DNA of 64,000 bases, taken from the NCBI RefSeq assembly GCF_020382885.2, contig NC_058502.1, positions 5,186,001 to 5,250,000 on the forward strand. The letters are read 5' to 3'. The notes under the pieces were generated by a model. That model made no database searches, was not told the origin of the DNA, and saw only the letters and a list, made by a program, of their open reading frames with translations. A program made the translations under genes and the position numbers. Positions 1 through 62,400 of this stretch are shown piece by piece. Each line of letters starts with the position of its first letter. The first letter of the stretch is position 1. The stretch comes from Scatophagus argus (taxonomy: Eukaryota > Chordata > Actinopteri > Scatophagidae).

Positions 1-201
1 ATTTCACAGCTCGTCAGTAAATCGTTTGCTCTTTTAACATCAGAAAACAGTGAAAGATTACAATATCATAGAGAATAAGGTAACGGGATCTTGTTTTATC
101 TGTCGAACAATCTGCAACCCCAAAACTTAAAAATATTAGACCATGAAAGACAGTGAATTCTCACATGGAACTTTTGTGTATGTGTGTGTGTGTTTTCACA
201 G

Positions 202-3200
202 TGACGGCCGATCAGTTGTGGAAAGGTGTGTTGGCAGAGACGGGCCCTGGAGTCAGGAAGGGCAGAGGAAAGAGAATGAAACGCAAACTTAGGAGGGATC
301 TGAACCGAGGACAGAAGATCGGAGAAGGTGAGACATCATCTGTCACTGCCCCTCTGGGGAGAGAAATTACCCGTCATTCGCTCAACCCGTCGTCATGTTT
401 TCACTTTTGTTTTTAGAGGATCTGTCAGTCTTCATTCAGTCTCAGTGTCTGTGGCACAGTCTCATCAGCTTGTATCTTCTCTCCCTTGTTTTCACTTTAA
501 CGAAATAACAATACATTATCGCCTGTAGACTCTTCAAATTCAATCTGTGGTAGATTATCCTTCCATCCATGTACTATCTCTGTTTATACATTGTTTGTTA
601 CTTTCTGAGATCTCCATACACAAAGAGACAAAGATTGGAAAAATTAGTCATGCTATATATTTTCTTCTCTTGCAAGTCCTTTTCTCTTGTCTTCCCCATT
701 TCCTTGATTGTTTGCTTTTTTTCTCTCTCTGTTGTGTGTTATTAACCCACAGGTCGCGGTGGTTTTCTGTGGCCTGGTCTTAACTCTCCTTTGAGGAAAG
801 ATGGAGCTCTGCTGAACATTGGTCAAAGAAGTGAGACTGAGCAGCAGGAGGTGCAGGCTGAACTAGGTACAGAGGCACACACTTCATGCAGTCATAGAAA
901 ATGAACATAAGTGATAAATAACATACCAGTGCACTTACTGTTACCCTGTTTTTGCAAATCTCTATCAATGTAGGAACACAGCCAGTCATTTTGTTTTTGC
1001 TGCTATCATAAGTGGAATTTGGAGAACAAAGCTGCTCAGTTGCCTTTTAAAACAGGAAGAGACCTTTTGTTTTTTGAGTGTGTCTAGTACTTGTAGATGA
1101 CTAAAAGACAGATTGGTCAGTGGAAACATTTTTTGCTCTCTGAGCAGTTATTGTACTGAAAAAGAGTCTTTTCAAGAGCCATCAGGAAGCAGTGGGAGAG
1201 AGAGATCGTGTTGAGGGCAGTTCCTTTCTCAAAAAGCAATTGCAAAACTGATTTATTTTATTTTTTTTAAATCCAGCATTTTTTATTTTCATGTATACTG
1301 GCCTTAAGCCTTCTTCCTTCCTGCCATTACTGGCACATTGCTGCACATCTTGGCCGGTAATGAGCACCGACAAAACTGTGTCTCACTCATGGAAAAACGA
1401 CTCCAGAGCACGAGGAGAAGTCAAAAACTCCACTGGGAACGTTTAATTTTCAGAAAGAGAAGCCCCATCAGCAGAAGCTGGCAGCTGGCCTCTACTCATT
1501 TGTTAACAGTAATGACACAGTTAATTCGACAGTGGCAAATAGCACTTCTTGTTAACCTGAATCAAGCTGTGCTCTTTGAAGGTCGCTGTGGTCTCCGTAT
1601 GTTCTCCAGGCTGCAGCGCTGAGTTTGTTGGTTGTGTCTTTCTGCAGTGCGTCAGAGGGACGAGTGGGAGAGGAGGAGGAAGATAAAGACGAAGAGGGAA
1701 AGAGGATGGACGGGGAGCTCGTGGGGAGGTGTGAGACTCGGCCCCCCTGACCCTGGACCCAACGGAGGTGAACACTCGCACAGTGTAAAAACGTGATCTG
1801 TGTGTGTGTGGCTGTATTGATGGAAAACAAAGATATGGATGAAGGAATAAAAGATTAAATCAGGGAATGGGCTGCTCTGAGTGTGTTTGTGGGAGAGAAA
1901 GAGAGGCCAGTATGGTGGCCCATGAGGACTGATGAAGATGAGAATGTGACCAATGCGTCAAGTGGGACAGTTTCCTAATTTAGAAAAACATCTCACTTTC
2001 TCTCTTTTCTTGATGCATGGCTTTCTTTTTCTTTTCTCTCTCTGTTTCCATCTTGTTCGGCAGTCCCCTGTGTCAAATCTGCCCTCGTCTGTTTTCTCTC
2101 TCTGGTCGTTCTTTTCTTTTCCATTCCTTTTTCCATTCTCTCCTACCATCTGTCAACCTCTTTTTCCTCACCTCCACGCCTACTCCATCTCTTTCCATCT
2201 CATCTATTTCTCTTACCTCCCAAACGTTCTTGTCTTTTTGTTAGTCTGTACTTAGGAACCTTAATCACTTTACTTTTCCTCTGCCGTATTGTTCAATGCG
2301 CCTCTTTGTCTTGTCTTCACTGTAGAACAATAAGTGAGTCTGAAGATATAGTTTTGTGTACTAAGATGGTGTGTGTTGTCAGGAACCAGTCACAGTGACA
2401 TTCATGGCAATTTTTATTTTCCTTTGTTATCCTGCATTCATCACCTTGCAACCGAGTTAAACTAAGTATTCAGATTAACTTCAGACTGAAGACAGAGACA
2501 ACAAATCTTTTATTTTGAAGGCCAGAGGTCTGCCCTGACTTTATTATATTTCCCCTGAACAGTTTGTCAGTATATCTGCTTTGTGTTTGTGCTTTGATCT
2601 TTGTTTTTAGTTGACTCTCAGATGTATAACAAATTGCACTTTGGGGACAATACAGACATACAGCAATTTAATTCTTTTAGGCTTCAGTGAAGACATACAA
2701 ATGATCGCCATCTCCTCAGTCTCCTGCAGCAGCAGGCTTTATATCAGAACTTTAGTTTGAAGGTTGAATGTAAGGTTTTCATTACAATCCTTGAGGAGTA
2801 CAGGTGGGATAAAATCCACCTGACTGGCTGACAGAGCTGCTTTCCTCCTGCTCCCAGCCTTGTTACATGTTAGTGTTGCTTTGGTCTTTGCTGTTGTCTT
2901 TGCTGAGTTAAAGACTGACAGTGGACGAGACTCTGTTGTCTCAGAGCACTTTTTTTGTTTGTTTCTTTCGCGTCCTCCTTTCTTATGTTGTGTTCATATT
3001 CCCTTTCGTGTCACCAATCTAACAAGCTCCCACCCTGGAAACGCGATCGCGCTTTCTCTCTCCTTCATGTTCAGACACTTTGTTTTACACACAGTCTGTC
3101 GCTGTCACACACATACACACTGGGCCCGGTGAATGTGATGTTTAGAGAGCTGTAACTAGGTTGCTTCTCTCTGATCAGGTTTAGTTTCTTGCAGATGGTG

Positions 3201-15127: not shown

Positions 15128-15221
15128 TGCTCCAGGTGAGGCTCGAACTCACAACCTCGGCATTGCTCCACGGTGTACTGCCGTATAAGTACCGCGCGCT
15201 AACCGATTGCGCCACTGGAGC
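15128..15221 (-). tRNA. tRNA-Ile (anticodon UAU) with a 20-nt intron
   Basis: Read on the minus strand from 15221: acceptor strand GCTCCAG, D-arm GCGC-AATCGGTTA-GCGC, anticodon stem CGGTA/TGCCG with loop CTTATA+A (anticodon TAT at 15187-15185), T-arm GTGAG-TTCGAGC-CTCAC, 3' acceptor CTGGAGC with discriminator A. The anticodon loop is interrupted one base after the anticodon by an intron (15164-15183), as is typical for vertebrate tRNA-Ile-UAU genes. Mature length is 74 nt before CCA addition. A-box (TGGCGCAATCGG) and B-box (AGTTCGAGCCT) internal promoters are intact. It reads AUA codons. There is no run of four or more T immediately downstream. It was named from the cloverleaf and remembered vertebrate sequence. 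Confidence 0.93.
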
Positions 15222-16583: not shown

Positions 16584-19500
16584 TCAGAAGTTTTTCCACC
16601 GGATGGACGAGAGGATGGTGTGGATGAAGTAGAGGAGTGTGGCCAGGTAGGCAAACACCTGAGAAACACACACACACACCTCCCAGGAGTTATTTTTACG
16701 ATATATTTGATGATTCATTCTTATTTTTGCCTAATCCAGTTTTAATTGAATTTCACACAAAGCCTAATTGCTTTTTTTTTTGCTAATAAACACCACTCAG
16801 ATGTCTGTATGGGAGGGGATATGAAGCAAGTGGCCAGTTAGCTTAGCTTAGCATGAAGGCTAAAGCCAAAGCTGTTGGTAGGTTTGTTTTCTGATTTTGC
16901 TAGCTAGCTAGCTTAAATCTTTTCATGTTGTTTAAACAAACAAAATGACATGTTGAGTGATGAGCTCAAGAGGTGCTGGCTGAGTGGATTTTGTTACCTT
17001 TCAACAAAAGCCATGCTAACTGTTTACCTCTGTTTGCAGGGTTTGAGCTAAGTTAAACCAAAGAGCTGCTAGAAATGCATTAGCTTCATATTCAGGCCTC
17101 CACACAGCCATCAGTGTGGTATCGATCTTCTCAGCTCACATATTTACCAAAATGTTGAACTCTTAACCCGCAGCAGCTGCTGAGGGCTGCTGGGTAAACT
17201 TGTTTTTGCCACATCAGCAGTTGTTCAAAGGAAAAAAAGGCTCTAGAATTGTAAAGCGCATCATCCTGTGGGTCCTATTGTTTGTTATGTTGGTGCTTTT
17301 TCAGTAAATACTGTACAACCAGCAGTTTATTCTCACCACAGCAGCGATGTCAATCTGGTAGATTTTGAACGCGGTCGTATCTGTTTTCTTCAAGAAGGTG
17401 ATGTAAGCCAAATCCACCCCTGCACTGAGGTAGAAGAAGGCAGCCAGGCCGTGGTAAGCAAAGTCCTGGATACAAAGATAGAATAAATAACATTAGAACA
17501 TGGCCGCAGCTCTCTTCTTCTCAGTTTTATCTCATGTTTCATTCATTCCTTCAATTCGTTCTCTCATTCTGAGCTGTTTCTCTCTTTCTTCTCGAGTCTT
17601 ACAGCAGCAGCCCAGCCAGAGCTGTTCTTATGGCCTCCCGCAGCAAAGATGATCATCCAGAGAAAGGTCATGACGAAGCAGAAGATCGAGACAAACATCA
17701 CCCAGCCCAGAGGGTTCGGCGGGTTCACGTGAGTCGACGCCACTAGGATCCACACCAAACCACCAAACACCTGCAAGGAATGGGTGAACATTATACTGAC
17801 AATAATGGGACATTCAAGTGTTTTAGCACTGTAATACTGAAGTGCATGAATGTCTGAGCCAAAATTTAATGTAATCCATCCGATAGTTGGCGAGACATTT
17901 TATTCAACATCACAAATATCACCATTATTATGGTGCTTGATGAAAAGTCAGGGAAACCAAAATCAATAGGATTCATCCGCTTTGAACCATGAACCACACT
18001 GCAAGACAAAATCTCACACTCACAAAGATATTTTTCTCTGTCGACTCCCACCCGTCTGGCACAACAAATATACTAACAACAACCACAGTTTGGAAGTATT
18101 GGCTCACACATATCTGACTCGTCAGAAATTATTTACTAGTTAATGCTTTTTTCTTTGTAACCTCCATTTGAGTCTGTTTCCTCCCATATTTCTCCATCTT
18201 TACAGTAATCTCTCCTTTTTGTTGTGTTTGTTATTTGTTATGGAGTAACTCCCTGAAGATATGAAATCATACCACCAGCAGAAATGTGTTTGTATACTCT
18301 TGATTTCTGCTCTTTAGGTGGGCTGCCCCCCCCAAATGACCTATGACTTACATGCATATTTTCTCTCAGTCTAATTGGGCTTAGCTTTGATCCGCTTTAT
18401 GATTTGTCTGTTACCACCACAGCGCTATGACAGTGTAGAAGTAGGTGGAGGAAATAATGAAAGTTTCCTGTCATGATAACAGGTGGAAAGACTGATCTAA
18501 GTGTCGTCTCTTTTCGCTGTTTAGGCATCTTTAACTGCCATTATTTTGACTTGGACAGTGTCTGGAAGGTCAGCTGTGTTATTGATTAAACATCACCTGG
18601 ATTCACAGACATTTATACAGCTACACATGGACCAAATGCTTTTGGGGGCAAGAAAATCCCCGTATGTCTTAACATTCAGTTTTTTGGTGTAGTTCTGTTT
18701 AATTCAAGAGCTCAAATTTATCAACAACGGCAAACTAGAGTTACAAAGAAAAGGCAGTGGTGCATTAAAGAAAAAATCTAAATTAGATGAAAACCACAAA
18801 ATAAAATACAAGTTACATAAAAACGTTGTCAAAATAACAAATCAGCAGAATCAGCGGCGACATCTCTCTTAGTGTTGACTAAACAAACGGTTCTCTTCAC
18901 TTTCTATAGGTCTCTGAGCACAGGGTGGGTGATGTTTAATTTGCCAGGTTACTTTAGATAGAGTGTTAACCACATCCATTGTGTCATACCCAACCCAGCT
19001 GACGCTATGAGCGTCTAAAAGTGAACACACACAATAATTTGCAACCTATGAAAAGGCTTTGTGTCAATTCAACCGCACAGAATCAACTGCTGTGAACATA
19101 ATTATTACTGATCCTTACTGGACCCCACTCAGTTTGCCTGATGCTTATTAAAAAGATTTACTGTATGCATTTTGTCTCTAGAAAAACATGGTTAAACTCT
19201 TTTCTTTTTTCCAAGTGCAATACACAGCAATATTAAGGACCCACAAGTGTAATATTAAAATGACCAGAATACACAGTAAACACCGACTCACTGATAACTG
19301 GTCCTCTTTTCAATGCACAGTTTTAAATGATTGGAAATTCAAGACACTGACTAATGTTCTGGTACACTGAGGTGCTGAGGGGAGTTCCAGAAAGCATGTC
19401 TTTTTGATCCACCTCACTACATCAGTTCTGTTAGCTGTGGAAAAACTCTTCATTTAATTGTGATGGGCTGGCATGATAAAGAAAGAGGCATTTGAACATT

Positions 19501-20829
19501 GAATATTTATTTTAAATAAAGAAGGGCGTGACATTTCAGTCTTGCAGCCTTAATATGTTGTACATCACTAAATAGATCACAAGCAGCAGCGTACACAGCG
19601 CAGCACCCATGTCTAGACATGTCAGCCTGTCTAGTCAAAAAAATAATGCTTATTGGAATCTAAAACTGTTATAGATATATAAGCTGGTATTTCCCTTTCA
19701 TCCTCATGTAAGATAAGAGTACAGGAAGATACTGCAAACCCGACATATTCGACATCAAATCAATAAAGTCTCTGCGTTACGAGGTATTCACTGTCTTAAT
19801 TTTCTTAAAACAAAATTCTGTCATTAAATTTAAGTTTTAAATCTGGGAAATTTTCACAGAACACAATTGTGAGCCAATGCTTCCAATACTTCTGTCAACT
19901 CCAGACGGGTGGGAGTTGACAGAGAAAAATATTTTCAAAGAACTAACTTTAATTATTTTATTTATTTATTTATTTAGTTATTTATTTATTTATTTATTTA
20001 TTCATTGCATCCCTGTAGTATTTAGATTGCATGCAGACTTGTCACTTGTTTTTACACAACTCAAATTTGAAACATTTGCTACGGTGCTACAGATGAAGCA
20101 GAGCATTAGTGCATCCAACTGTTCTCTTGACAAACAACAGCTAAAATAAACCACCTAAAATACATTTGCTTCTCAGACATATAAACTGAAACACCTTCCT
20201 CTGGGCAGTTATTGTCCAGTCCATTTTTCCAGCAGTTATACGAGCTGTTTCTGTCTTTTGTCGTCATTCGGGGACAGGAAGAATTGGCCGCATTCTTCCT
20301 TAGATTAGTAGCACAGGTACAATATGGGTGAAATGTGAGATGTGAAGGGACACAGATGCTCCTCCCTAAAGGGGAATATATTTCATCCTCTTCCCGTTTC
20401 ACAAAAATGCACATTTTTGTTCCAAAAAATTTTCAAACTCAAGCTTCAGACGTATGATGTGTTTATAATGTAAAAAGTGTTAATGTTTTGTCTACTAGCT
20501 GCCCTTTATCTCTTAAAATGACTACAATTAATGTTATCTTCCGTATGTATTGTTTTCTAAGAGAGTGGCTCACACTGTTAACATTTGTTATTTAAATGAA
20601 TTTAAAATCAAGTCAGATTAATCAAAATCAGGAAAACCAACTGCTCCCTTTCAAAGATTGACCCAAAATGGAAAGAATCTCTTCATGACTGACTTCAAGG
20701 TCAGCTCTGCTCTGTCCTCTGTTACTGTCCACTCACCAGTTCAGGCAGGTAAAATATATCCGGGGCCGTGGTGCATATCCCCAGTCCGCTGGGCAGGCTC
20801 CCCATAGCCTGAGCAGTAGTTGCAGCCAT
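16584..20829 (-). CDS. MAL-family four-helix MARVEL proteolipid, tandem copy 1
   Basis: Four exons on the minus strand: 20737-20829, 17603-17770, 17337-17465, 16584-16658, all phase 0, giving 154 residues (human MAL has 153). MAL proteins are raft-resident tetraspan proteolipids acting in apical and myelin membrane trafficking. Visible parts are an N-terminal LPSGLGICTTAPDIFYLPEL, first helix VFGGLVWILVAS, second helix LGWVMFVSIFCFVMTFLWMI, third helix from AYHGLAAFFYLSAGVDLAYI, fourth helix VVFAYLATLLYFIHTIL, and an RWKNF C terminus like the RWKSS of MAL. The start is the ATG that gives a family-length N terminus. By position next to mrps5 it should be mal, but LPEL and YHG resemble MALL, so no symbol is given. 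It is tandem with the MAL gene starting at 30953 and shares its intron positions. Confidence 0.95.
16797..17095. mobile_element. Rearranged copy of the teleost MITE-like repeat
   Basis: Within intron 3 of the first MAL gene. A sense piece (GATATGAAGC, then TTAGCTTAGCTTAGCAT near 16835) is followed by an antisense piece (GAGCTCAAGAGGTGCTGGC near 16962, then TGAGCTAAG near 17045). It looks like two fragments of one family joined in inverted orientation. Confidence 0.55.
18024..18107 (+). repeat. Left arm of a dispersed inverted repeat in MAL copy 1 intron 1
   Basis: A segment of about 84 bp whose reverse complement recurs at 19868-19940. The core CTGTCGACTCCCACCCGTCT differs from the other arm by one base, and both arms also share GGCTCACA at the far end. 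Confidence 0.8.
19868..19940 (-). repeat. Right arm of the dispersed inverted repeat
   Basis: Reverse complement of 18024-18107, separated by 1.76 kb. Its inner part has an extra short palindromic segment (CTGTCAACTCC / GGAGTTGACAG) around the CAGACGGGT core. A (TTTA)n run follows at about 19961-20001. Confidence 0.8.
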
Positions 20830-23189
20830 CTCTGCCTGTTCCTTCACCCTTTACCAAGTCCACAGCGAGCGACCTGCCCTCTCCTCTGAAATAACAGGGC
20901 GGCAGCAGGTGTTTCTGACTCTTAAAGGCAAGCCAAGTTCGCGGACAAACCCGTTCTGCTATTGTGGGTGAGAGATCCCGTCCCACAACAGCTCCTTGCA
21001 CCACCCTTTGTCTTACAACACCCAAGGCTGTGCCTGGCGTTTAATGTGTGCTAGTGACCTGTGAAGGGATTTTGAAACAACCACAGGAGGAATTTCATGC
21101 CCTGTGGCTGTGGTTAAACCCATGCAGGTGAAATGTCTGCATTGTTGCTGCTGAGTAAAGAAAGAGCTCACAGAGTTTTAGATTGTTCCGACTTTATGAT
21201 CCTTAGCTGAGTGCCTGCGGTGTGTGTTCCTACTGAAAACAGGAGTTTAATTTTGAAATATAGCTGACTGTGATTAACTTTATTGACACAAACAACATTT
21301 CTGCCACTTCAACCTCACAGACAGTATTGCAGATCCACACAGCTTGACTTTGAAGCTGCACTAATTAGTATTTTCATGTTAACGACAGATCAAATGACGG
21401 GGGTCACTAATGGTCTCAAACTCTCCCCCATCAGCTTTTGGAGTGTTTTAACATTTTTCAGCTGGTTGTTTTATGTTTTACAGCACAACTACACCACTCT
21501 CATCAACACATTTTCAACCACAAAATGTCTAAAGAAACTTTGATGGACCCACCAAGCAGGATACATGCAAAGTTACTGACCAGCTGGTCAACATAGTGGA
21601 GAAGAAAGAGCCAGATAAGTCTCTTTGGTAGGGAGCAAACCGGAACTAAAAAACAAGGAGGAGCAGGATGGATAGATTTCAAATTAATGCTAATGTTTTG
21701 TAAATGAGCAACTGTAAACAAGTAACTGTTTGCTAATGTGTTAAAACATATCAAAATCATTAAGTGATGATAGATCAATGTTGCACTTACAGTTCGCTCT
21801 GCTGCAGGTGGACAAAAAAATAATAAAGATCAATAGATGCTGCTTTAAATTCCAGTTGGAGATGATTTTCCAAACATGACTAATCAGGCTAATTTTCACA
21901 TTTTGTATTGTGATGCACTGACATCACGCAAGTTAAAATTATAGAATTATAAGAAAAAGGAAAAAAAGAAATGAAAAAGATGTTTTCAAACACAACAAAC
22001 ATGCACACTAACATTTGGATTCAGGGATATTTAAAGTACTTTTATTGGGTAATTGTGAAGCCACAATATCACTTTAATTTGTCTCATAAATGCTTCATTC
22101 TTGATTGGAAACCTGATAAATTAAGGCAGACTGTCCCGGTGACTCTACTTACCTGTTGCATGTTCCAGTCAGGTGTTTTCTAAACATTCCCCGTCTTTTG
22201 GTGAATCAAATATACTGTCTTTGTACTTTTTAAGCGAATATCAAAAAGTGTTAACAATTTATTAATGTGTAAGTATGTGTAGGAGAACATGGCTATAATA
22301 TATATTTTAAAAGTCAGACTTGTATGTAAGGTTTTTTTTGTCCTTGGAGATGATTTGCACTGTAATATAAATACAATATGATATAAAATCCCATCACATT
22401 TTGTGTAAAATAAAAAGCAAAGTCTGAGCAAACAGAAAACCCACAACATTTGAATGTCCAGTTTATTTATTTCATATCACAGATTCCAAAAACACCTGTA
22501 AAGTGAAATTATCTAAATATTTACATCTCATTCTCTTTTTAAAGTTTATCATAAAAATGCAAAAAGTAACTCATGTCCTACCATACATCAAGAAGCTGAG
22601 CCTGTCACAAAACAGTAAAACCACTGTGTTAAAACTGAATAAAAAGACTGTTGTTGTGTGAAGAGGAACAGTTATATTTACACATTTATCTGTTGTTCCT
22701 AGTGAACATAGTAAATGTCTCTTTTTCCCCCCTCTAGTCCAGATTTTTTATTTATTTTTTTGTTGTTGTTGTTGTTGTTGTTGTACAAGCCTTCCTGAGA
22801 TTAATTAACAATTAAATATTCTATGCTGCTCCGAGCTCCACTGCTGAACATGCTGTTTACTTTTTAGTAAAATCTTTACTAAATGTTTAGTTCTGGCTGG
22901 AACAAAACTACTGGCGCATTACTGATGCTTAATTAAGATTGTGAAACATCCTTTGAGAAATACACTGAGTTTTGGGGGGGATCACTGATCATTTTACCTG
23001 CACAGTAAAGTCTTTAAACGGTCTCGAGTGTGCTCTCTAGTTTAACAGCAAAGAGGTAATTTTATCATTTTATTTTGCTCCCCGTCAGATGCTAAAGTTG
23101 GGAACAAGCTGAAACTGGCTTTTAGATGCTGTCAAGTTGCACTGCCCTTTAATGTGCAGTTAGACAGCTGGTTCAACCAAATTTCTAAA
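20830..23189. other. Interval between the two MAL-family genes
   Basis: No exon is supported. The first 200 bases on the minus strand are the probable promoter and 5' leader of MAL copy 1. (GTT)n lies at about 22761-22783, and a TTTATT at 22463-22468 (AATAAA on the minus strand) could end the second MAL transcript. The rest is A/T-rich without recognised repeats. Confidence 0.6.
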
Positions 23190-23322
23190 AAACATCCATC
23201 CATCCATCCATTTTCTATACCGCTTATCCATCAGGGTCGCAGGCGAGCTGGAGCCTATCCCAGCTGACTATGGGCGAGAGGCGGGGTTCACCCTGGACTG
23301 GTCGCCAGTCAGTCGCAGTTAT
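23190..23322 (-). mobile_element. 3' fragment of a teleost LINE (CATCCATCCATTTTCT type)
   Basis: Begins with (CATC)n then CATTTTCTATACCGCTTATCC and continues with GGAGCCTATCCCAGCTGACT and CACCCTGGACTGGTCGCCAG. This is the reverse complement of a very common fish retrotransposon 3' end that finishes GGATAAGCGG...AAAATGGATGGATG. It lies in the presumed 3' UTR of the second MAL gene. The family name was not resolved. Confidence 0.75.
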
Positions 23323-23856
23323 TTCTTACTTTTCCACTGTGGTTTAGAGAGATAGCTGCCCCCCCAGACAAATACTACAGAAGTGAATTCAATTTTTTGG
23401 TGCTCTTTGATTGATACTACTTTCTATGTCATAATTTGTCCCAGTGAAAACAACTTCAGCATCTTCTATTGGTAAGCGAGAAAATGAGTGCTCCTAATAT
23501 TTAATTAGATCCATGGTTTAATTAGTTATCTACACCCATCTATTTCTGACAAACACATTTTAACCTCATTCATGTTCTTTGCATCTATTCTGTCCAAACT
23601 GTTGCCTTTCTGATTAAGAAGGAGTAAACTGGGGGGTAAAAATGTACAGGCCTTCCTGTTTTCCACTCATTCGTGTTGTTGAAGTTTGGCACTTTGGTTA
23701 AAAGAAAGTTACTCTTCCTGACGTGAAAATAAAAAGAACAAAAAGAAAAACAAAAGGTCGTCCTGCATTCAGTTCAGTGACAGGTCATCTGGTTTTTTTG
23801 GTTTCCTCTCTTTTTGGTGTTCTTGTTCTTGGTTTGTGGTTTGATTTGATGTTTTA

Positions 23857-24872
23857 TTAGGACCTCTTCCATCGGATGGCAGAGAAAATGGTGTGCAGGA
23901 AGTAGAGAAGAGTGGCCACATAGGACATCACCTGAAAACACACACACACACACACACAGACGGATGAATCATTGTCACCTTGAGGCCCAAAGACGAATGT
24001 GTCACAAAAGTGATTTAAGACAAATAGCGATTGAGTTTGATTTGAATATCCACCTAAAACTAGAGGTGCAGGATGAGATTTTGAATGTATCACTTGCCTT
24101 CAGCCATCTTAGTCATTACAAATTGATGCTGTTCACACCCTTTATTTTACATTATAACTGAGATCTTACATTTTTCAAAGTTGCCAACTATGTCAGACTG
24201 AAAGGTTTAGAAGTATGTATAATATTTGGTACTATGATATACACGATACTGAGAACTACTTAATTAACTTCTGAACTCACCTTGTACAGAAAATATTACT
24301 TTAAATGGCTTCAGTTTAAGTTTAAATTAACATTCTGTTTACATGTTATTTAATTGTCTTGAACCACACTGTATCTGAATGTTATAAGTGCAAAAGTATT
24401 GGCATCATAATATACTTAAAGTACCAAAAGTAAAAGTTCTCATCATGCAGAATGTCATATTTCAAAATAATGTATACGACATTATTTCATTAGAATTATT
24501 GATGCCTTCATGTGTTAATAACTTAACTTAATGCTGATAAAGGTGGCTTAAATACTTCATCTTCATGTGTAGCTTGTGAATTTCCCCTCAGGGATCAGTA
24601 AAATTTTATATTGATCGACAATAGTACATCATAATTTATTTGTTGATTTGTATAATCAAAATAAACCTGCAGCGTAACTGTGAAGTTGTCCTGTAAAAAG
24701 TACAATATTTGCCTCTGGATTGTAGTGGAGTGAAAGAACAAATTAGCAGAAAATGGAAATTCTCAAGTAAAGTACAAGCACTTCTAAATTGTACTGAAGT
24801 ACAGTACTCGGGTAATTTCACTTAGTTGCTTTCTGCCACTCGTAGTACTCGTAGTATGTAGATGTAGTGATC

Positions 24873-24920
<48 letters not shown>

Positions 24921-26121
24921 ACGTACCACTGCAGCGATGTCCAGTCGGTAAATTTTGAGACTTTCATCGCTGAGAAGTGTGGTAAGGAAGTTATTGGTCA
25001 CAAGCGTCACACCCCACCCTTTCAGAATGGTGATGTACGCCAGATCCACCGATGCACTGAGGTAGAAAACCACTGACACAAAATGATAAGCCACGTCCTG
25101 CAGGGGGATGGAGGAAGGAAAGAGGAAAAGGAATGAGAGGAAGGTGGAGGACAAGTTGAGAGGTCAGAGAAATAGAGTGAGGAAGAAAGATAGTGATTAT
25201 AAAAAAGGAAGGAAAGAAAGCGGTGACAGCGATAGAGGAAGGAGGAAATTGGTAAAAGACACGTAAGAGACAAGCAAGAGATGGATGAAAACAGAAGGTA
25301 GCAGAGGAAGAAAGGGTTAGGTAAGAAAAACAGGGAACGGACAGGAAGGTGGAGGTCAAAAGTAGAAAAAGATTTAATTAAAAACAAAATGGAGGCAGAA
25401 AATACAAGCATGTGGAAGAGGTGAAAGAAGAGAAAAGGGGAGAGCAGGAGGGATAAAATATGAAACAGGAAGTGGGGAACAGACAGAAAACAGAACTGTC
25501 AATCAACTGTTTGCTAAGCCCCGCCCACCTTACTGTTACAACACCTGTCGAGCTTTCCATTTTAGCTCTGTGCTGTTTAAAATTATAACACTGGCAGATT
25601 TACCAGGCGAAATTCTTAACCCACACACTCTCATACCTGTGCATTAAACACGAGACTACAGTCAGCTGACAGTTAACTTGGTTTAGCACAAGGACTAAGA
25701 ACAGCAAGAATCCAGCCGCTATAACATCTGCCTTCCTGCACCTTTAAAGCATCACATTTATTGCTCTTGCACAGTCTGTTCCCAGTCTTTGTGCTAAGCT
25801 AAACTATGGACAGATATGAGGGTGTGATCATCCCACCTAAGTCTCCTCTCTTGGGGTTGGGATATATCTATACAAGATTAACCATTTATCATTATTATTG
25901 TTTGGAAGCGATTGGCGCGTCTCACCAAGGTTGGCCAGATGCTGCTCTGATTGGCTCCACAGAGGAAGATGAAGAACCAGAGTGTCGTCAGTACGAAGCA
26001 GAAGACGGACACGAACATCACCCAGCCCAGAGGGTTGTCCGGATAGACACGAGTCGACGCCACCAGGATCCACACCAAACCTCCAAAGACCTGTGGGGTC
26101 ACGTGGGGGAGGGACAGGAGG

Positions 26122-26154
<33 letters not shown>

Positions 26155-29100
26155 GAGATAAAGCAAATAAGTTGTTGGCGTTTGTCGTGTAGTCGTATGG
26201 ACTCAGTTCCTGCGGTGGCCTACTCTGATGAGTCTCCCCAGCATTTTCTAAATATTTAGACAAAAAAGATCTGATTAAAGCTATATTTGTTACTCTCAGT
26301 GTACAACAAGCCAATGACAAAACTATGACAGCAGTGGAAAGTTGTGATTTTACAGCATGAGAGTGAACCAGAACAGGGAAACTTTGGCCAGACAGAAGAA
26401 CAGCATTCATTATAAAGCTCTGTAAAGCTGAGGGGAGCTGCACATATCACAAGACCCCCCCCCCCGCCATGTTCTTTTTGTTTTCACATTGTCATTTGAT
26501 ATATTGTTACTACAAAAATATTGACTTAAGTCACTCAAGTCATAGATACTGCTGTTTCCACAATGCAACTTGACTTTCCATGATAAATATGCAGCCTCCG
26601 AGCCCCCTTAGAAAACTCCTTCGTGCTTTGTGTGTAAAATTGGCGGAGTGCCCCTTAAAAGGCTGAAACCTGCGAACACACACGCACACACAATACTGAC
26701 TCTCTTAGGTGTATTTTCATAGTGTTTCTCTCTCCTCCTTTGGCAAACACTCTGCTTGAAAGAGTCGTTGGCATTCAGAAAGAACATCCAGCATTTCCTT
26801 GATAAGACGCACTTTGAAATACTTGACTGTAGATAACCGTGGATCCTGCGAGGAGGAAAACTGTCTTTGCGCAACAAGACATCACCTCTGTGTTGTAGCC
26901 TTTTCTCATGTCGTGTCACAGTACAGAAAGCACAGGTATAAAGACCTAATGAGGGCTGAATTCCATTTAGCTGCCGCAGTCTCCTCGTTCAGCTTACTGT
27001 GACACTTGAACAGAACAGAGCCATTGTAATTTTTGTTAGTTCCATCTGTGCTTTTCATACTATAATGAGTGGAAACGTTTGCTGCAAAAAAAGGCACACT
27101 GTGACCTGGCTTTGGTTTTCTTCTGTTGGGCAGTTAAGAGCTACACACGGGCCACAACAGCTCAATCAATCAGCATTAAGCCCTCACGTTTCAGGTGTGC
27201 ACGAGCAGAGCTGGAGCAAACACCTGCAGGGGGCCCATTTGGATTCAAACAAGAAGCTGCTCTTTCTTGAGAGGAAAGTTGACACAGATGCAGCAACAAA
27301 GAATAACAAAATGATTCTCAGAAGAGGGATCAACACGTGAGGAAATTAAATTCTTGAGATACATGGAAACTCTGAATGATCTTGCTACTTTTACTCTTTG
27401 AAAATCTAAAGTTAACAGGGGGTTGCATTTTCCAACAGATGATTTAATGTTGTATGTGTCAGTAAAAATCATTCAGCCTACTTTGCTGAGGTAAAACTAT
27501 GATTAGTTTGAGAAACTGACCATCTGTACAACTTTAAAAGTCACTCAGTCACTTTAACTCTCTCTCAACGATATCCAACAATCACTTTTGAAATTCTTTT
27601 TTTGTAAATTGTCACAGAGTTGCTGTTAAACAAGGTTTCTATCAGCTGTGTAAACACAGTGAGTTCAATGCCAGGACGGTCTATTCATTAAGCTCAGCCA
27701 TCAACATTTGGTACATGTTAAGAATGTGCCACACCCTTAATTACACAGTACTCCTGCAGGTACTTCAAATATTTCCCTACGGAGATTAATAAGTTTAACC
27801 CCATGTGATTTTAACCTCAAACGTTCCCTCTAAGTAGCTTTGAAATTAGAAAGAAATTTGTTCCTCGCTGTGTGATAATACCACGTCATCGCTTGTTTCA
27901 GCACTTCACTGAAGATGAATGATACTGACACTCACACACATCATGATCTCCATGCATCATTTAGACTAAATTTAAACATGGTATGTGTTTTATTTTGGAA
28001 CCTTTGCAGCTGAGATCAGACTTTTAAATGAAGAATGCGGGTTTAAACAAAGTTTGTCCACAGTCGTCTTACATGTGAATTTTTATTTATATTTTATTCT
28101 AATTATTTTATGTCAAAAATAATACAGTTGCAGTTGGGTGAGACTTGGAAATATGTTTTAGCATAACAAAGGTATGACTGTCGAGCTATTTTTGCCAATG
28201 CTTGGATATTAAGCTTTTCATAATGTTACGGGAAAATGACTGCTGAAAGCCACATTAGTCAAATATTTAAAGTGTTCAAGTGTAACATGTTAAGAAAGTG
28301 AGATGCAGCGGTGAGAAAAACCCTAAAGCAACAGCCCGTTACTGTGAAAAGACTGCATTGCCTCGTGCAAACATTACATTGAGCTTATATAGAGATATCA
28401 GCAAATATTGCATAAACCTTTACTGTTACATATCAGACTTATCTATCTCCATACCAGAGGAACATTAACCATTCAGTCTTGGGTCAAAGGGAAGTGACCC
28501 GCAGTCCATTAAATTTCCTCTGAAAACCTGTCATTGTATCAAATACTTCCTGCCATGTGCTTCTGACATACTAGCAGAGACAGACAACTTTATTCTGTTT
28601 GGATTCTGAGTTCCAGTTGTAATCCAGCAGAAATCTTCTGAAACCACTGTTCAAAGTCCATAAGTTCAAAGCAATCCTTGTATCACCAATATACAGCTAC
28701 AGTGTTTTGTCCAAACTGTGTTGCCGTACCTCAGCAGAAGCCATTGCTACTATCAATGTCAATCACTGTATTGTCTCTGCGTTGTATTAAAAACTGTAAT
28801 AAGAGTGTCACATGACCACTGACTGAGCCCTGCTGCTCTACTAAAAATTCATCCCAAGTATTGGTGAATTTTTGAATATTTTAGAATGGCTAAAATGAGT
28901 TTTCATTTTTTTATTGATTGCATCAGTTGAACACAACCTACAGTAACATATATGACCTTAGCTTAATTTTAAATGTTTGTTTGAAATGATTGCCAATGTC
29001 TATATACACACTGTCTCATTGTTTTCAGTCCAGTTCATTTCATTCATTTGTGTAACATTTTTTTCTGTGTGCAGGGTCACATCAGTAGTAAGTATTGTCT

Positions 29101-30953
29101 CTAAGTATCGTTTCAGTTGTCTTTGTGTCATCAGAAACCACAAAAAAAAAACATCAAACATTTGAAAACAGTTTTCCATTTTTGGTCTCATCTTAACTGT
29201 TGAAGTAGTTTTAACAAAAACGGCAGAGGGTTGGAATATTTCTCTCAATCTCTTCTTGCTGGTTTCACTTTCTGACTTTCTTTAGTTTGAATTTCCTCCA
29301 TCATTCAGGTTCATTCTGGGAAAACAACCCGATTCATAGTGGTTTACATACATTACCAGTACATTTCCGTACCTAACAGCAGGTATTTTGTTTGAAGGCA
29401 TAGTGGCCAGCAGCCGGAAAAAAAACACAGAGGCCAGCAAGTAAACCATGTGAGTTGATGGTTGGTTTAGAATTACAGTTCTACCTTCAACTAAGCAGTT
29501 TTTCCACCTGTGTCACACAGATTTAATCTTCAGTTCCCTGTACAGGTACAGTCTACAGTTGTTTGTGAATTTAAAAAGGAGCTGCATGTGTTACATTCAT
29601 TCTATTAAATGTCCAAAGCTCCACAGTGAGGACAAACACACCTCAGGACAAATGTAAGAGATAAGCACGACATGGGAAGTTTCAGTAGTTTCCTCCCTAA
29701 AGAAGAAAGTCTGTACCTTCAATTCTCACACCAGAAAATCTGATGAACCAACGTGAAGTCTGGAATATCAGATTCAGGTCAGCCTTCATTTCTCTTTACT
29801 GTCCAAATGAAGGCTTGCAATGCTCTCCCCAACAAGTTCAGATTTACGGTGACAAACCGAACTTCTGCTAAGACTGTGAAAATGGTGAAAAGGTCAGTCT
29901 TCAACCTTTTCACCATCTCACGGTCTTAGCAGAAGGTCGGTTTGTGCAAATTTATTAACACTTTACAACTGAAACAGAAACTAAAGAATAGTTACCCCTG
30001 TGGAAGGCCTTCAGATAGCTACCTGAGGTACACATCTCTTCTAGTGTTGCTCTTTCTCTAACAAACCTTTGTGTGGGTAGAGAAAACATTTAAAATAGTC
30101 AGATTTCTTTTTTGGAAAACTTTTTAAATGCTCATTTCTAGTTACTCTTTAGTGTGTATTTGCTGGAATAATTCTGTGCCTTCAATATGACACATGATTA
30201 CAGTTTTATCGTCCTTTTAACTTGAAGAGAAAAAACCTGTACTGTCTAAATATTGCGTGGATCATGTGATGTTTTGCTTTTTGTTGCTAAAACATGTTGA
30301 AGGTGCTGTTTTTTTTCTTGATGTCATGGCAACCTCTGAGACAATTTGCCCTATGGGACAACTGTCAGCAACTGCTAAGCTGAGCGGCAGAACTTAAGAC
30401 TAACTTTGCCAATAATGATTAGCTGAAAAGCAAATATGAGCTGTTTTAATTGGCTGCGCTTAACCTCCTCATTAACCACTTTCATTGTCTTATCCTTGTT
30501 TCCTTGTTGGAGCAAACCAAACATTTGATCTACTGTGCTCTTCATTGTTTTTTTGCTCGTCATCCTGTGTGGGCTCCACTGATCAACTACTGATCCCTGC
30601 TGACCAACATAACAATAAAAGAAAGATTCCTATCTGAAACGGAGACTCGCCTCAGTGGATCACTGATCAGGAAGCAGATAGAGAGCTAAACAAGAAAGAT
30701 TAGAATCTAAATTATGCTGACCCAAGTGAATTAAGGATGAGAATGTGCAAGAAGGAAGAAGATCATAGTCTGTGAAAGAGTAAAAAGCACAGCGTTTCAA
30801 ACAGGAAAATAGAAGGAGAAAGAGGAACCCCCAGAAATAGAAAAACAAAAAAGATGAGAAACTCACAAACTCAGGGATGAAGAACACATCAGGAATGGAG
30901 GTGAAGATCCTGCCGCCTGTGGGCAGAATGTCACCTGAGGTGGTGGAAGCCAT
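23857..30953 (-). CDS. MAL-family four-helix MARVEL proteolipid, tandem copy 2
   Basis: Four phase-0 exons on the minus strand: 30867-30953, 25926-26090, 24927-25097, 23857-23931, giving 165 residues. The parts mirror copy 1: N-terminal LPTGGRIFTSIPDVFFIPEF, helix VFGGLVWILVAS, LGWVMFVSVFCFVLTTLWFF, third helix AYHFVSVVFYLSASVDLAYI, fourth helix VVMSYVATLLYFLHTIF, and C-terminal IRWKRS. Exon 3 is 57 codons instead of 43, adding 14 residues (around GVTLVTNNFLTTLLSDES) to the loop between helices 3 and 4. By neighbourhood (nphp1 side) it is the expected mall, yet FYLSAS, IPEF and IRWKRS look more like MAL, so no symbol is assigned. The ATG at 30953 was preferred over an in-frame upstream ATG at 31406, because the upstream part is low-complexity and unlike the family. 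Confidence 0.95.
24877..24917. repeat. (TG)20 tract beside the exon 3 donor of MAL copy 2
   Basis: Read as (CA)20 in the transcript, beginning about 10 nt after the exon 3 splice donor. The other end of the same intron carries a UG tract (23938-23958). Confidence 0.95.
25100..25470. repeat. Polypurine/polypyrimidine tract in MAL copy 2 intron 2
   Basis: About 370 bp that is nearly all A and G on the plus strand (blocks such as GGAGGAAGGAAAGAGGAAAA), hence C/U in the transcript, running straight into the exon 3 acceptor at 25098. A second such run, (GA)n at 26124-26152, precedes the exon 2 acceptor. Confidence 0.85.
25640..25850 (-). mobile_element. Decayed antisense copy of the teleost MITE-like repeat
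   Basis: TTCCCAGTCTTTGTGCTAAG near 25780 is the reverse complement of the TTAGC...AAGACTGGAAAC centre of the copy at 47859-48215. It lies in intron 2 of MAL copy 2. Confidence 0.55.
26091..30866 (-). other. Intron 1 of MAL copy 2
   Basis: A 4.8 kb intron, A/T-rich, with no supported exon. Features seen are a C-run at 26455-26465, a small inverted repeat (GCCTTCATTT / AAATGAAGGC, 29783-29818) and the large hairpin at 29851-29947. Confidence 0.6.
29851..29947. repeat. Near-perfect hairpin with 44-bp arms
   Basis: The left arm 29851-29894 (from ACAAACCGAACTTCTGCTAA) pairs with the right arm 29904-29947 with about three mismatches and a one-base offset; the loop is about 9 nt. It could fold in RNA from either strand. 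No transposon or known microRNA was recognised. Confidence 0.9.
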
Positions 30954-31048
30954 AGTCCAAAACACTGCGTTTGAGGGTGTGATTTCCACTAGAATGAGAT
31001 ATGTTTCCTTTTTTAATCTGCTTTTTAAAGCCTGTCTTGTGCTCCTCT

Positions 31049-39144: not shown

Positions 39145-42100
39145 TTAGCGCGACACACAGAGGAGGTCAAAGGTCAACTCCGAGATATCAAAGGCGAGAT
39201 GCTGATGCATGGCGTCGACAAAGACCTCTGGGCCTCCGGGTTGGCCCGTGGTGTGCTGTGTGTGTTTCAGAGCGTCCAGGGCGGCGTAGATGACTCTGGC
39301 TCGCTGCTCTTCTGAGGGCGGGTCAGCCCAGCGATGACTGGGCAGCGAGGGCGTGCGGAGGAGAAAATAGACGGACGACATGTAGACTTTAATGAACTCC
39401 TGTTTTAAGTAGGAAAAGTCTCTCTGCAAACACACAGGGGAGGAAAGAACAGTTTATATACACACCTGACAGTAAGAACAGGATGCTTCCTGTTCAGGGA
39501 CGTGTACACACATTTTAACTTCATGCTAGACAAAAAGCCAGGTTGCTTGTACCGTTAGCATCCTCTACAGGTCTGTACTGGTATTACACACTCAAACTGA
39601 CCTTCTGCGCTCTGCTCATGTTGACCTCTGCATCCAGCCAGGCACACTGAAACAAAACACCAGTTACACTCATCTAAATTCTGCACAACAACTGAGTCTT
39701 AGATGTACAAGAATTTCATCAGGACAAAAAAACTTTCAGCAGGTTGAATTAAAACCAATACTGGTGAAAACGCACTGAATATTATGAGCTGACACAGTCA
39801 TAAATTATAGAATTATAAAAGCTTCCATTATCTTGCTATTCATCCCATTTAAAAGGCAACTGGGGGTAAGTTTGATATTGATGCTCTCGCTACTGACCCT
39901 GAGCGCATCCAGCAAGTCTGGTTGGTCCAAGAGCACAGGGAAGGTAGAAAGTATAGGACTACATATCAAATCTGAAACAGAGAGACATCTTGTTTTAGGT
40001 TATTTAAAAGAGACACTTGGATTGGAGGCAGCGACGGCGTGCGTTACCTGCATTCTGCATGGTAGGTCTGTCCATCAGCAGTGCGTCAGCCAGCAGCTGC
40101 CTGTGTAGAGCCAGCAGGTGGACGCAGCTCAGACAGTGCAGCAGAGTGTCTGGAAGGAGGCTGAGGAGGGAAACAGACTGGTCACTAACGTGTACACTAT
40201 AGCATACAAACATGCATGTACCTGAGCTGAACCATGAATGTCTCGAAACACATCGAGTGGTAAGTTATTGTGAATTCGCACAAGCTCTTCAAGCTCTGTG
40301 GCAGTTTTTTCCTCGCCGATGCTCCCACCTGAGCTGCGTTCTGGAACGGCTGTTGGCTGATTTCAACTTGATGATCAGTTTGGGCTGCCGCCTGGCATGA
40401 AGCATCTGCTGGAAAACACCTGCCGGGGCTGAAAGCACGAGAGAGGCTCTAATTGCTCTTGTTTTATTGAATCCGATTTTAAAATTTAAAAACAACCTGA
40501 AAAGGTTTTCATGTATTGAGCAACTTTCAAGTGTGAAGATTATCGCAGTCCAACAAATCCTGAAAAACTAGTTTTTAATTCTTTTTCCATGTCATTTGTC
40601 ATTTCAAATTAGCCTGTGAAGAAACTTTAAGACTGGACTTGAAGACTGTTAAGCTCTGCTGTGTCTTCTTACATCCTCTAGTGATTGACGCCTCGACAGC
40701 AACATCCTTCTCATAGGGAGTTCCACCATTCACCAGCAGCTCGTAGGTCCTACACACACGTCAGATTAGTGTAGATTAGCTTACTCCATCCCTCTGTTAA
40801 ATACATCAGTGTAACAGTGTGTGCACCATATGAATCCACTTATTTCCATGTGTGTGTGTTATGGTGTGCGTACTTGTTGGGGAGTGGATTGCCAGCCTCA
40901 TCGGTCAGTTTGAGGAAAGCCCAGCCGCAGCTCAGGTCTCCTCTCTCACCTGTAGACTGAACATAAACAAACACAGAAGATCTGAAACAGCTGCTCCCCG
41001 CCTTGGTTCTTGTATGTCCTGTGTGATTCAGTGTGTCTTTTCTACAACGACTTCATCTCATCTTCATCACTATCACGTGTGTTTGTCCTTACATTTCGTA
41101 TAAAGGTGACTCCCAGTTCAAACAGGATCCCGAGGTCAGGTGACGCAGAGTTGCAGCGTAGGAAACAGTCTCCATCTAGCAGGGTGGGGAGGATACCCGA
41201 CATCTGAAGAAAACACACACACACACACACAACAACAACTTACAAGATTAAGTTCAATGCTGAGGTTCTGTTTTGAATGTTCCAGTTGCCAGTACTGTCA
41301 AATCTTAACATCGTATCTCAAAGTTCACATCGCCTGACCAAACATCAGCAAGCATACCCTTGGAGAGAAGCTCCAGGTTTTGGGGCTCTTGGAGTTATAG
41401 GTTGCCCTCACTGTGTGGATGTTACTCAGCACCTGAAACACAAGTACAGCTCGTTTAGAAAAAAAAAAAGTGGAGTGACATACATTTATGCTGTGGCATA
41501 AATGAATAGAAAACGTCTGAGATATAGCATGTGACTGCTGAAAGAGCTGCCCATCCGAAAGGGAAATGTTCCCTAACAATGGGGAAAAACTATGCATACG
41601 AGAGAAACACTCTCACCTGTGTTCCATCAAAGGCACAGAGGCGAATGTGCCTGCTGAGGACCTGAACTCCGACGCCAGGAGTAGGTATCATCCTGCAGCT
41701 CCACAAAGTGAAACAAACACAAGTCCTGACCTGCCGAGCTCGAACCTACGAGGCAGAATGTGCTCATTGGTGACTGGACGCTCTGCAGTGTGTCAAAACT
41801 GAAAAACACATCATCATGCCATCGTGATCACCACACAGAGCGGCTGTCTCACCCTGCCAGTGTCTGCGTCCAGGAACAGGTCACTAAAGGAGAGCTGTGA
41901 TTGGCTGAGCTCAGGCTGAATATGGTGACTCCCTCTGTAAGTTACACCTAGAAAGACACAAACAGTTACTGCATTGCCTGGATTTATAAGTTTAAGATGT
42001 ACTAACAGAGACTGTGGTATAAATACTGAAGGAATCACCCAAATGGTTTCTGTTTCTGCTGCTCCCCACAGGACTGCTGCTCTTTGACTGATGTTTCATA

Positions 42101-59400: not shown

Positions 59401-62400
59401 AAAGTGATGCAGGAGGTGGAGATGAAGAGATAAGGAGAAAGAAAGATGTGTGTGTGTTGATGTGAGAGAAAGAGAGAGAACGTGAAAGAGGCTGATGGAT
59501 GGAGAGAAACAGCTAAGTGAAAGCGAGAAGGAGAAGAAGGTGTGAGAGTTGGAGCGAAGAAGAGATGATGGGGAAGGGTGGGTTTCTCCAGACCAACTTT
59601 TCTGTTAATTCTGCTTTCATACAGCCGAAGCACGTAGGACTTCAGGTTGGGCCACTTCATAGGTTGACAGGTTATTTTCCTGGTGATCACAGTTTTCTCA
59701 TTCTCCTCTGCAGCCTTCCCCTGGTTTGGTATGGACATTGGTGGCACCTTGGTCAAGTTGGTGTACTTTGAGCCAGTCGACATAACTGCAGAGGAAGAAC
59801 AGGAGGAAGTGGAAAACCTGAAGTCCATCCGCCGCTACCTCACCTCAAACGTGGCCTATGGTATGTCTACCCACACACACACACGTGTCGTCACACCCAC
59901 ATGCTTGCATGTTTATGCATGTGTTTATCTAAGGCAGGGACAGTCAGGTTAAGCACACTTCACAAGAAGATTAGGATACCAGGATGTGTTTTATATTGTG
60001 TGCCGCCAATGTATTGCGTTAGATTATCAAAGTGTTTTTAGGGATTTGTTCTTGACTTGAGTTGTTATGGAGAGCACATCACCCACCTCACCACAACACC
60101 AAGAAACAACATTTTGGTTTTTTTTTTTAGTCCTCAGAAAAACTTTAGCGTGTTTGCAAGTCCTAAACAGAGTACACGGGGCCAGAATCGTCTGTTGTAA
60201 AAAGCCTTCCGTCCTCATTCAGGTAAAACGGGCGTCCGTGACGTCCACCTGGAGCTGAGGAACCTGACCATGTGTGGCAGGACAGGGAACCTGCACTTCA
60301 TCCGCTTCCCCACACAGGCCATGCCCCGTTTCATCCAGATGGGTCACGACAAGAACTTCTCCAGCCTGCACACGACACTCTGCGCCACCGGCGGCGGCGC
60401 ATACAAGTTCGAGAATGACTTCAGAACGGTGAGTGTATTAGCTGCCGAAAATGCCTGATCACCGTTAAAATGTCAGATTTACAGTCGTTCTTATGGCAAA
60501 CATTTGGGCACCGATACGTGATTAGTTAATCTATTTGTATTTATTTGACTATTTGGATTTTTAAAGCAAACTTGTCAAACATTTGGCTGTTCCAGCTTCT
60601 TGGACTGTTGGTCCGACAAAATGAGACATTTGATGACTTCGCAAGAGTTGAGCTGAGATATTTTTCACAGCTTTCTATATATCATCAATCATTCATGAAA
60701 ATTATCTTTAGGTGCTGCTCCAGTTAAAGATCAAACTGTGCCATGTAAACAGCTCTGTGGCATTTGTACAGAATGCTCACTAGTTATTATCTGATTTGAG
60801 CAGAGAATTTCTGTTGGTTTTCATGTCTTGGCAGTTGGTTGAGGCTACCTCCTGGTGATTCTTGAACATGACTTGAAGTTGGCGCATTTGATATCTCGGT
60901 GCCTGTTTACCTGAGTTCATTGACCCTCTCTGCAGTGCAGTAGGATCAGTGAACTATCCCTAGGCAATGCAGCATGAACCGGGTTGAACCAAGACCTCAT
61001 GCACATCTGAGTTCTTAAGTGCTTTGAAATCTTTGTAGCTTCACAAATGTGAAAATCAGTGATCCAAAGAGTATGATCATCTTTTAATTTTAATGATCTT
61101 GATCAGTTAACATCCCTTTGATGTTGTTTCAAGGATTAAAGGAGGTTTATTTGTCATTATAGCTGTGTATGTGCAGTACATAGGGTGATGAAACAGCGTT
61201 CCTCCAGGATGCTACATGGTGCTACACAAAACACTGCACATAAGTAAAATAAAATTAAAAAACAAAAAGTATAAAACTAAAGAATAAAACTAGAAATATA
61301 GAATAAAAAATATAAGAAATTAAAAAAATACATGCACAGGTTTCCACAGTATATACACAGTTATGCACGAGACAGATAAGACATTGGGGTAGTGCAGGTA
61401 GTGCAGAGGTGTGCCAATTTTGGGTGTGCATGTGTGTTTGTGTGGAGTGTATGTATATGTTTGTGTATGTGTGTGACTGTGTCCTGTCTCTGGGAGTCTG
61501 ATGGCTTGGGAAGAAAAACCTACTCTCGAGTCTGGTGTCTGGTGGTGGACCAAATGCTCCGGTACCTCCTACCAGACAGCAAGAGTTTGAAGAAGCTTGG
61601 TGCCCTTGACAATCTCCACGGCGGATCCGTCAATGGTCAGCGGAGCGTGGTCACCCTGATCCTCCCTGAAGTCAGCAGCCATCTCTTTTATCAGCTGAAA
61701 TGGTGTGATCTCAGTATTTTCACCCTCTTCTGTTTGTGTTGCAGATGGCCGACCTGGAGCTGCTGAAGCTTGACGAGCTGGACTGCCTGATCCGCGGCCT
61801 GCTGTATGTCGACCGGGTGGGCTTCAACGGACACCCAGAGTGCTACTATTTCCAGAACCCGTCAGACACCCAGAGCTGCGTGAAGAAGCCCTGCACCCTG
61901 GACAACCCCTTCCCCATGCTGCTGGTCAACATCGGCTCCGGGGTCTCCATCCTGGCCGTGTACTCAGAGAACAACTACAAACGGGTGACTGGGACCAGGT
62001 GAGGAGGATCACAAAGCATTTCCATATTCTTATCCTAAACTCTCTAAAACCTCATGAAATACACACAAGGAGTGGAGTTGTTTGTTGCAGTCATGTTGGA
62101 GTTTACGAGATCAGTGACTTTTGCAGTGCTACACATGGCAGAGCAAGCAAAATTCATTCAGATGAAGGCATCATGAAGTTGCACAACTGATGTGACTTCA
62201 GCTTCAAGTTTTCTCAATCACTGATAAGGCAGCTGATCTACACAAGCCGAACAAAAACATATGTCAGGGTTGACTCCCTTTTAACAGCTCATTTCCTCGT
62301 GGAACACCAATACCAATACACTGATCACAAAGGCTTATATTTTGTAATTTATCTTAATTTGATAACCTGATAAATTAAGTCAGATTACTGGAAACATTAG

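Follow-up and report, generated by a model that had tools for sequence, protein, structure and literature searches.

Complementary AC and UG repeats at the two ends of a MAL-family intron in Scatophagus argus: a candidate (AC)m-(GU)n intron

When the two ends of an intron carry dinucleotide repeats complementary to each other, do the repeats pair and help to join the splice sites, or are they microsatellites that the intron tolerates? Intron 3 of a MAL-family gene of Scatophagus argus raises this question. The gene lies in a stretch of 64,000 nucleotides, hereafter the window, and is the second of a tandem pair of MAL-family genes whose exon structures match (16590..31000, minus strand; MAL1 and MAL2 below); the pair shares the window with NPHP1. 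Pfam matched both copies to the MARVEL family (E 9.5e-16 for the joined protein of MAL2 and 1.2e-16 for MAL1); one PANK exon fell below the Pfam cut-off (26.8 versus 28.5) while the other passed, and an NPHP1 exon matched no family. The tandem MAL pair together with NPHP1 resembles the human MAL/MALL-NPHP1 neighbourhoods, and we take the gene content of the window (the MAL pair, NPHP1, MRPS5 and PANK) to be vertebrate-like, judging by human proteins.

In MAL2, the junction of exons 3 and 4 keeps the reading frame and leads to the MAL C-terminus. The intron between them has the following parts:

24926..23932, minus strand: intron 3 of MAL copy 2 (MARVEL family), 995 nt, GT-AG, at the in-frame exon 3/exon 4 junction
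25097..24927, minus strand: exon 3 of MAL copy 2
23931..23860, minus strand: exon 4 of MAL copy 2
24921..24926, minus strand: donor GTACGT of MAL2 intron 3, compared with the U2-type consensus
24877..24917, minus strand: (AC)20.5 tract, 41 nt, uninterrupted, intron positions 10-50
23938..23958, minus strand: (UG)10.5 tract, 21 nt, uninterrupted, intron positions 969-989
23965..23975, minus strand: candidate branch-point stretch, between the nearest upstream AG and the UG tract

Exon 3 ends in GCAGTG and the intron opens with GTACGTCAA, after which the AC tract follows; at the other end, the UG tract stops 6 nt short of the intron end and is succeeded by TTTCAG. The initial annotation had the coordinates, lengths and orientation of these repeats right. 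Candidate branch adenosines at -44, -38 and -34 lie upstream of the UG tract, with predicted unpaired probabilities of 0.09, 0.91 and 0.17, and only the one at -38 is thus predicted to be open. Clear similarity between this intron and intron 3 of MAL1 is confined to the repeat and the acceptor end. Within the window, blastn with the intron body returned the self match only, and we rejected an origin from a repeat element because a second copy of the body is absent from the window. Searches with the exon 3 peptide yielded no confirmed relatives in prokaryote contigs (187 pattern matches) or viral contigs (25). Rfam found nothing within the intron and one tRNA across the window, a tRNA-Ile gene (anticodon TAT; 15128..15221, minus strand) that ARAGORN also reported; at 94 nt, it likely contains an intron itself.

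Lin et al. (2016, Genome Research) reportedly described zebrafish introns of this layout, named (AC)m-(GU)n. According to PMC9024468, such introns carry AC repeats close to the donor and GU repeats close to the acceptor, fold across the intron with free energies below those of ordinary introns, and are spliced without U2AF; PMC9198270 gives a brief account of the same mechanism, and a figure of about 10% of zebrafish introns is cited in PMC6093180. At most a citation of the class came from PMC7404189, PMC5766209, PMC6883713, PMC9977717, PMC9456152 and PMC10809524. MAL2 intron 3 resembles these introns in having AC by the donor (41 nt), GU by the acceptor (21 nt) and a helix that, by prediction, joins the tracts and draws the splice sites together. 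It is much longer, at 995 nt, than the cep97 example of the class (171 nt by the coordinates in PMC9024468), and whereas U2AF-free splicing has been reported for the zebrafish class, MAL2 intron 3 is known here from its sequence and predicted fold. The MAL genes were not named in our literature searches, which concerned introns of this class and proteins that bind the repeats.

We computed the partition function of MAL2 intron 3 flanked by 60 nt of each neighbouring exon; the folding figures given here and below are equilibrium predictions for RNA free of proteins and of the process of transcription. The UG tract is predicted to pair with the CA tract with a probability (P) of 0.94 over the UG tract, and in the minimum free energy (MFE) structure the donor and acceptor lie 12 graph steps apart. 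Two proposals of the initial annotation, that the tracts are able to pair and that pairing brings the splice sites together, are therefore borne out at the level of prediction. When UG was replaced by UC, the helix was lost (P 0.0, 91 steps). Shuffling was less uniform in its effect: three UG shuffles gave P between 0.00 and 0.06, a further 12 ranged from 0.0 to 0.61 and from 7 to 102 steps (two of the 12 at 12 steps or fewer), and pairing remained in three CA shuffles (P 0.27 to 0.72). Since some shuffled tracts still pair, sequences other than perfect repeats can also give the predicted helix and bring the ends near each other. Swapped tracts, with UG at the donor and CA at the acceptor, are predicted to pair as well (0.998), so the orientation of the repeats is not explained by folding alone. 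The whole-intron MFE structure contains the CA:UG helix and the centroid structure does not, probably because sliding registers hold each single pair below 0.5. The donor itself lies outside the repeat helix, where for the most part it is predicted to pair with other sequence (unpaired 0.28); the corresponding value for the terminal CAG is 0.78.

The strength of the pairing was compared among 35 of the 39 introns then annotated in the window, namely those of at least 120 nt. The end-to-end duplex of MAL2 intron 3 (-44.8 kcal/mol) was the strongest of the 35, and none of 1190 mismatched end pairs equalled it. Averaged over the 35 introns, end pairing was slightly better than with permuted ends (p 0.048), and with MAL2 intron 3 removed it was no better than with permuted ends (p 0.21); we therefore rejected general end-to-end pairing across the introns of the window, as the effect disappears without this one intron. 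An unusual overall fold was likewise rejected, because the MFE per nucleotide of MAL2 intron 3 (-0.228) is mid-rank, 14th among the 35 of 40 introns that are no longer than 1400 nt, a comparison in which its GC content is low (0.334) and few introns are of similar length. The earlier assignment to the teleost AC/GT intron class stands in part: the class is in print, and the sequence and predicted helix fit it. On the lower folding energy reported for the class, this comparison with introns mostly of other lengths points neither way, and a dependence of splicing on the pairing is hypothetical.

The UG repeat had also been described as occupying the place of the polypyrimidine tract, which is true of its position. 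Between -25 and -5 of the acceptor, the pyrimidine fraction is 0.57 against a mean of 0.69 over 40 introns (six of the 40 are lower and three others equal), and the U fraction is 0.57 against a mean of 0.43. The acceptor is thus weak in pyrimidines but still U-rich, and U2AF2 binding is compatible with its sequence.

These 40 introns come from six genes within the window (MRPS5, MAL1, MAL2, NPHP1, an SDR gene and PANK). Their boundaries, placed independently of transcripts, were derived from tblastn anchors (human proteins, where these matched) and from in-frame GT-AG junctions found by eye. NPHP1 exons 1, 2, 3, 5, 17 and 19 gave no tblastn match, and reading frame and likeness to the NPHP1 protein decided their positions; the SDR probe was mostly derived from the window itself. 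The counts omit the MRPS5 acceptor at 201, the donor of which falls beyond the window, as well as a PANK intron upstream of 59716 whose donor was not placed. Further introns with one tract or a weaker pair are the following:

17336..16659, minus strand: intron 3 of MAL copy 1, 678 nt; UG tract only, at 16666..16679
41204..41357, minus strand: NPHP1 intron 12; UG-only acceptor (41213..41231, 19 nt) without CA at the donor
40750..40873, minus strand: NPHP1 intron 14, 124 nt; CA run (11 nt) at its 5' end, UG run (7 nt) at its 3' end
59861..60222, plus strand: PANK intron; CA only, at the 5' end (59872..59884)
181..201, plus strand: MRPS5 acceptor directly preceded by 13 nt of UG repeat; donor outside the window

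MAL1 intron 3, about 7 kb from MAL2 intron 3, carries a 14-nt GU run followed by TTTCTCAG, and its scored 5' end is free of any CA run longer than 3 nt, which agrees with the earlier description of the paralogous intron as having the UG side only. In the PANK intron, the 13-nt CA run begins 11 nt past the first base, and the acceptor has no UG run. NPHP1 intron 14 represents a weaker second CA/UG pair, with a predicted P(CA:UG) of 0.66. The initial annotation had held that normal splicing of relatives with only one repeat, or neither, would count against a role for pairing; at sequence level, introns with a single repeat do exist (MAL1 intron 3, NPHP1 intron 12 and the PANK intron).

How often would such an arrangement arise from repeats scattered by chance? 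The 64-kb window contains 20 CA/TG arrays of at least six units, so single repeats are common. We slid all repeats circularly along the window (2197 shifts) and counted runs within about 50 nt of splice sites. At a run length of at least 12 nt, CA occurred at the 5' end in 2 of the 40 introns and UG at the 3' end in three, with UG at the 5' end in one and CA at the 3' end in none; the corresponding shift means were 0.34, 0.29, 0.30 and 0.34. The sole reversed-orientation case at this length is an MRPS5 intron (1768..1810, plus strand) in which 12 nt of UG repeat lie about 30 nt past the donor. One of the 40 introns had the two tracts together, CA 5' and UG 3', against a shift mean of 0.0014, and 0.14% of shifts reached one such intron, a figure to be read with the run-length thresholds having been chosen after looking and MAL2 intron 3 having been selected for being striking. 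At other thresholds, a both-ended intron was reached in 3.2% (8 nt), 0.27% (10 nt), 0.05% (16 nt) and none (20 nt) of the shifts. An earlier version of the test with 39 introns agrees with the 40-intron run.

Orientation was compared over the same 40 introns. For runs of at least 6 nt, 16 end tracts were correctly oriented and 5 reversed (binomial p 0.013), and for at least 8 nt the numbers were 9 and 1 (p 0.011); the excess was non-significant by this test for 10 nt (6 and 1, p 0.062) and 12 nt (5 and 1, p 0.109). The count of nine correctly oriented ends of at least 8 nt was reached in none of the 2197 shifts, and at least five at 12 nt in 0.09% of them. Co-occurrence of CA and UG in the same intron was non-significant over the 40 introns (Fisher p 0.146, 0.214, 0.427 and 0.504 at 12, 10, 8 and 6 nt), and the rank correlation between the two was near zero (Spearman 0.06). 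UG thus favours acceptors and CA, more weakly, favours donors; these counts do not show their joint occurrence to exceed what these preferences give.

These counts bear directly on the possibility that the repeats are tolerated microsatellites, each kept or expanded independently: the UG tract, being half uridine, would serve U2AF2 or other U/UG-binding factors, CA would be allowed after donors, and pairing would be incidental. The abundance of CA/TG arrays in the window, the UG-only acceptors of MAL1 intron 3 and NPHP1 intron 12, the CA-only PANK intron, the non-significant co-occurrence and the above-average U content of the MAL2 acceptor are all consistent with this account, which we consider a serious, if less probable, explanation. 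Set against it are the exceptional strength of the end-to-end duplex in MAL2 intron 3 and the enrichment of ends and orientation beyond the shifts, which this account allows yet pure neutrality does not predict. Alternatively, the tracts may be sites of protein regulation, with hnRNP L on the CA tract and TDP-43 or CELF on the UG tract tuning last-exon use or intron retention, and pairing competing with them. CELF proteins bind UG tracts, and the acceptor of CFTR intron 8 has the layout (TG)m(T)n, which MAL2 intron 3 shares in that (UG)10.5 is followed by TTTCAG, a UG repeat and then a U run right before the AG. The CFTR acceptor is controlled by TDP-43, whose binding lowers use of the site. 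Its repeat is linked to mis-splicing, with reference to TDP-43, in PMC12276007; PMC13174678 associates HNRNP-L with AC and TARDBP with GT repeats. Regulation of this kind would also suit the position of intron 3 as the last coding intron, retention of which would extend the frame through a His-Thr repeat to a stop.

The likeness to CFTR intron 8 is one of sequence layout, and unlike that intron MAL2 intron 3 has a long complementary CA tract after its donor. The CA tract similarly recalls intronic CA repeats bound by hnRNP L in lying near the donor, here as a feature read from the sequence, but differs from them in having a complementary partner. Protein binding would explain each tract, but not the presence of both in one intron, and we regard it as an unlikely main explanation; protein regulation and pairing can coexist in this intron. 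A pUG quadruplex formed by the UG tract at the acceptor appears highly improbable. Such repeats are enriched near human splice sites (PMC12276007), but the fold takes 12 repeats according to the same source, and the tract in MAL2 intron 3 has 10.5 units; the other UG acceptors of at least 12 nt measure 14, 19 and 13 nt. The quadruplex is therefore disfavoured on length.

On balance, we lean towards the interpretation that MAL2 intron 3 belongs to the (AC)m-(GU)n introns and that pairing of its tracts joins the ends, so that less help from U2AF2 is needed. As the transcript emerges, the AC tract just inside the donor would pair with the UG tract just ahead of the acceptor. The resulting helix, about 20 base pairs long, could form in many registers, since the AC tract has twice the length of its partner. 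The helix would loop out roughly 920 nt and bring the donor and acceptor close, and intron ends matched in this way may require less U2AF2 help at the acceptor. From the tracts, their orientation and position, and the predicted helix, we infer that pairing could occur in the cell, promote splicing and lower the need for U2AF2. The mechanism is plausible for this intron and is known as a class. We think that the helix is a helper and not an absolute requirement: the strong form of the proposal, in which splicing is lost without pairing, is weakened because neighbouring introns carry unpaired tracts.

How the two MAL introns came to differ invites a further suggestion, which we offer as speculative and improbable as it stands, that the paired arrangement was built stepwise, from an ancestral UG acceptor that is unpaired in MAL1 to a CA partner and a longer UG tract gained only in MAL2. 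If this were true, the tandem MAL pair would be a natural before-and-after experiment, in which a pairing-dependent intron was assembled from a tolerated microsatellite acceptor. For the present, MAL2 intron 3 looks like one more example of an already described intron type, within a class reported as common in zebrafish. If pairing does work here, its uninterrupted tracts, its length of 995 nt and the nearby paralogous intron with a single tract would make it a tidy test case, and it could help to show whether splicing requires repeats of this kind, benefits from them or simply tolerates them.
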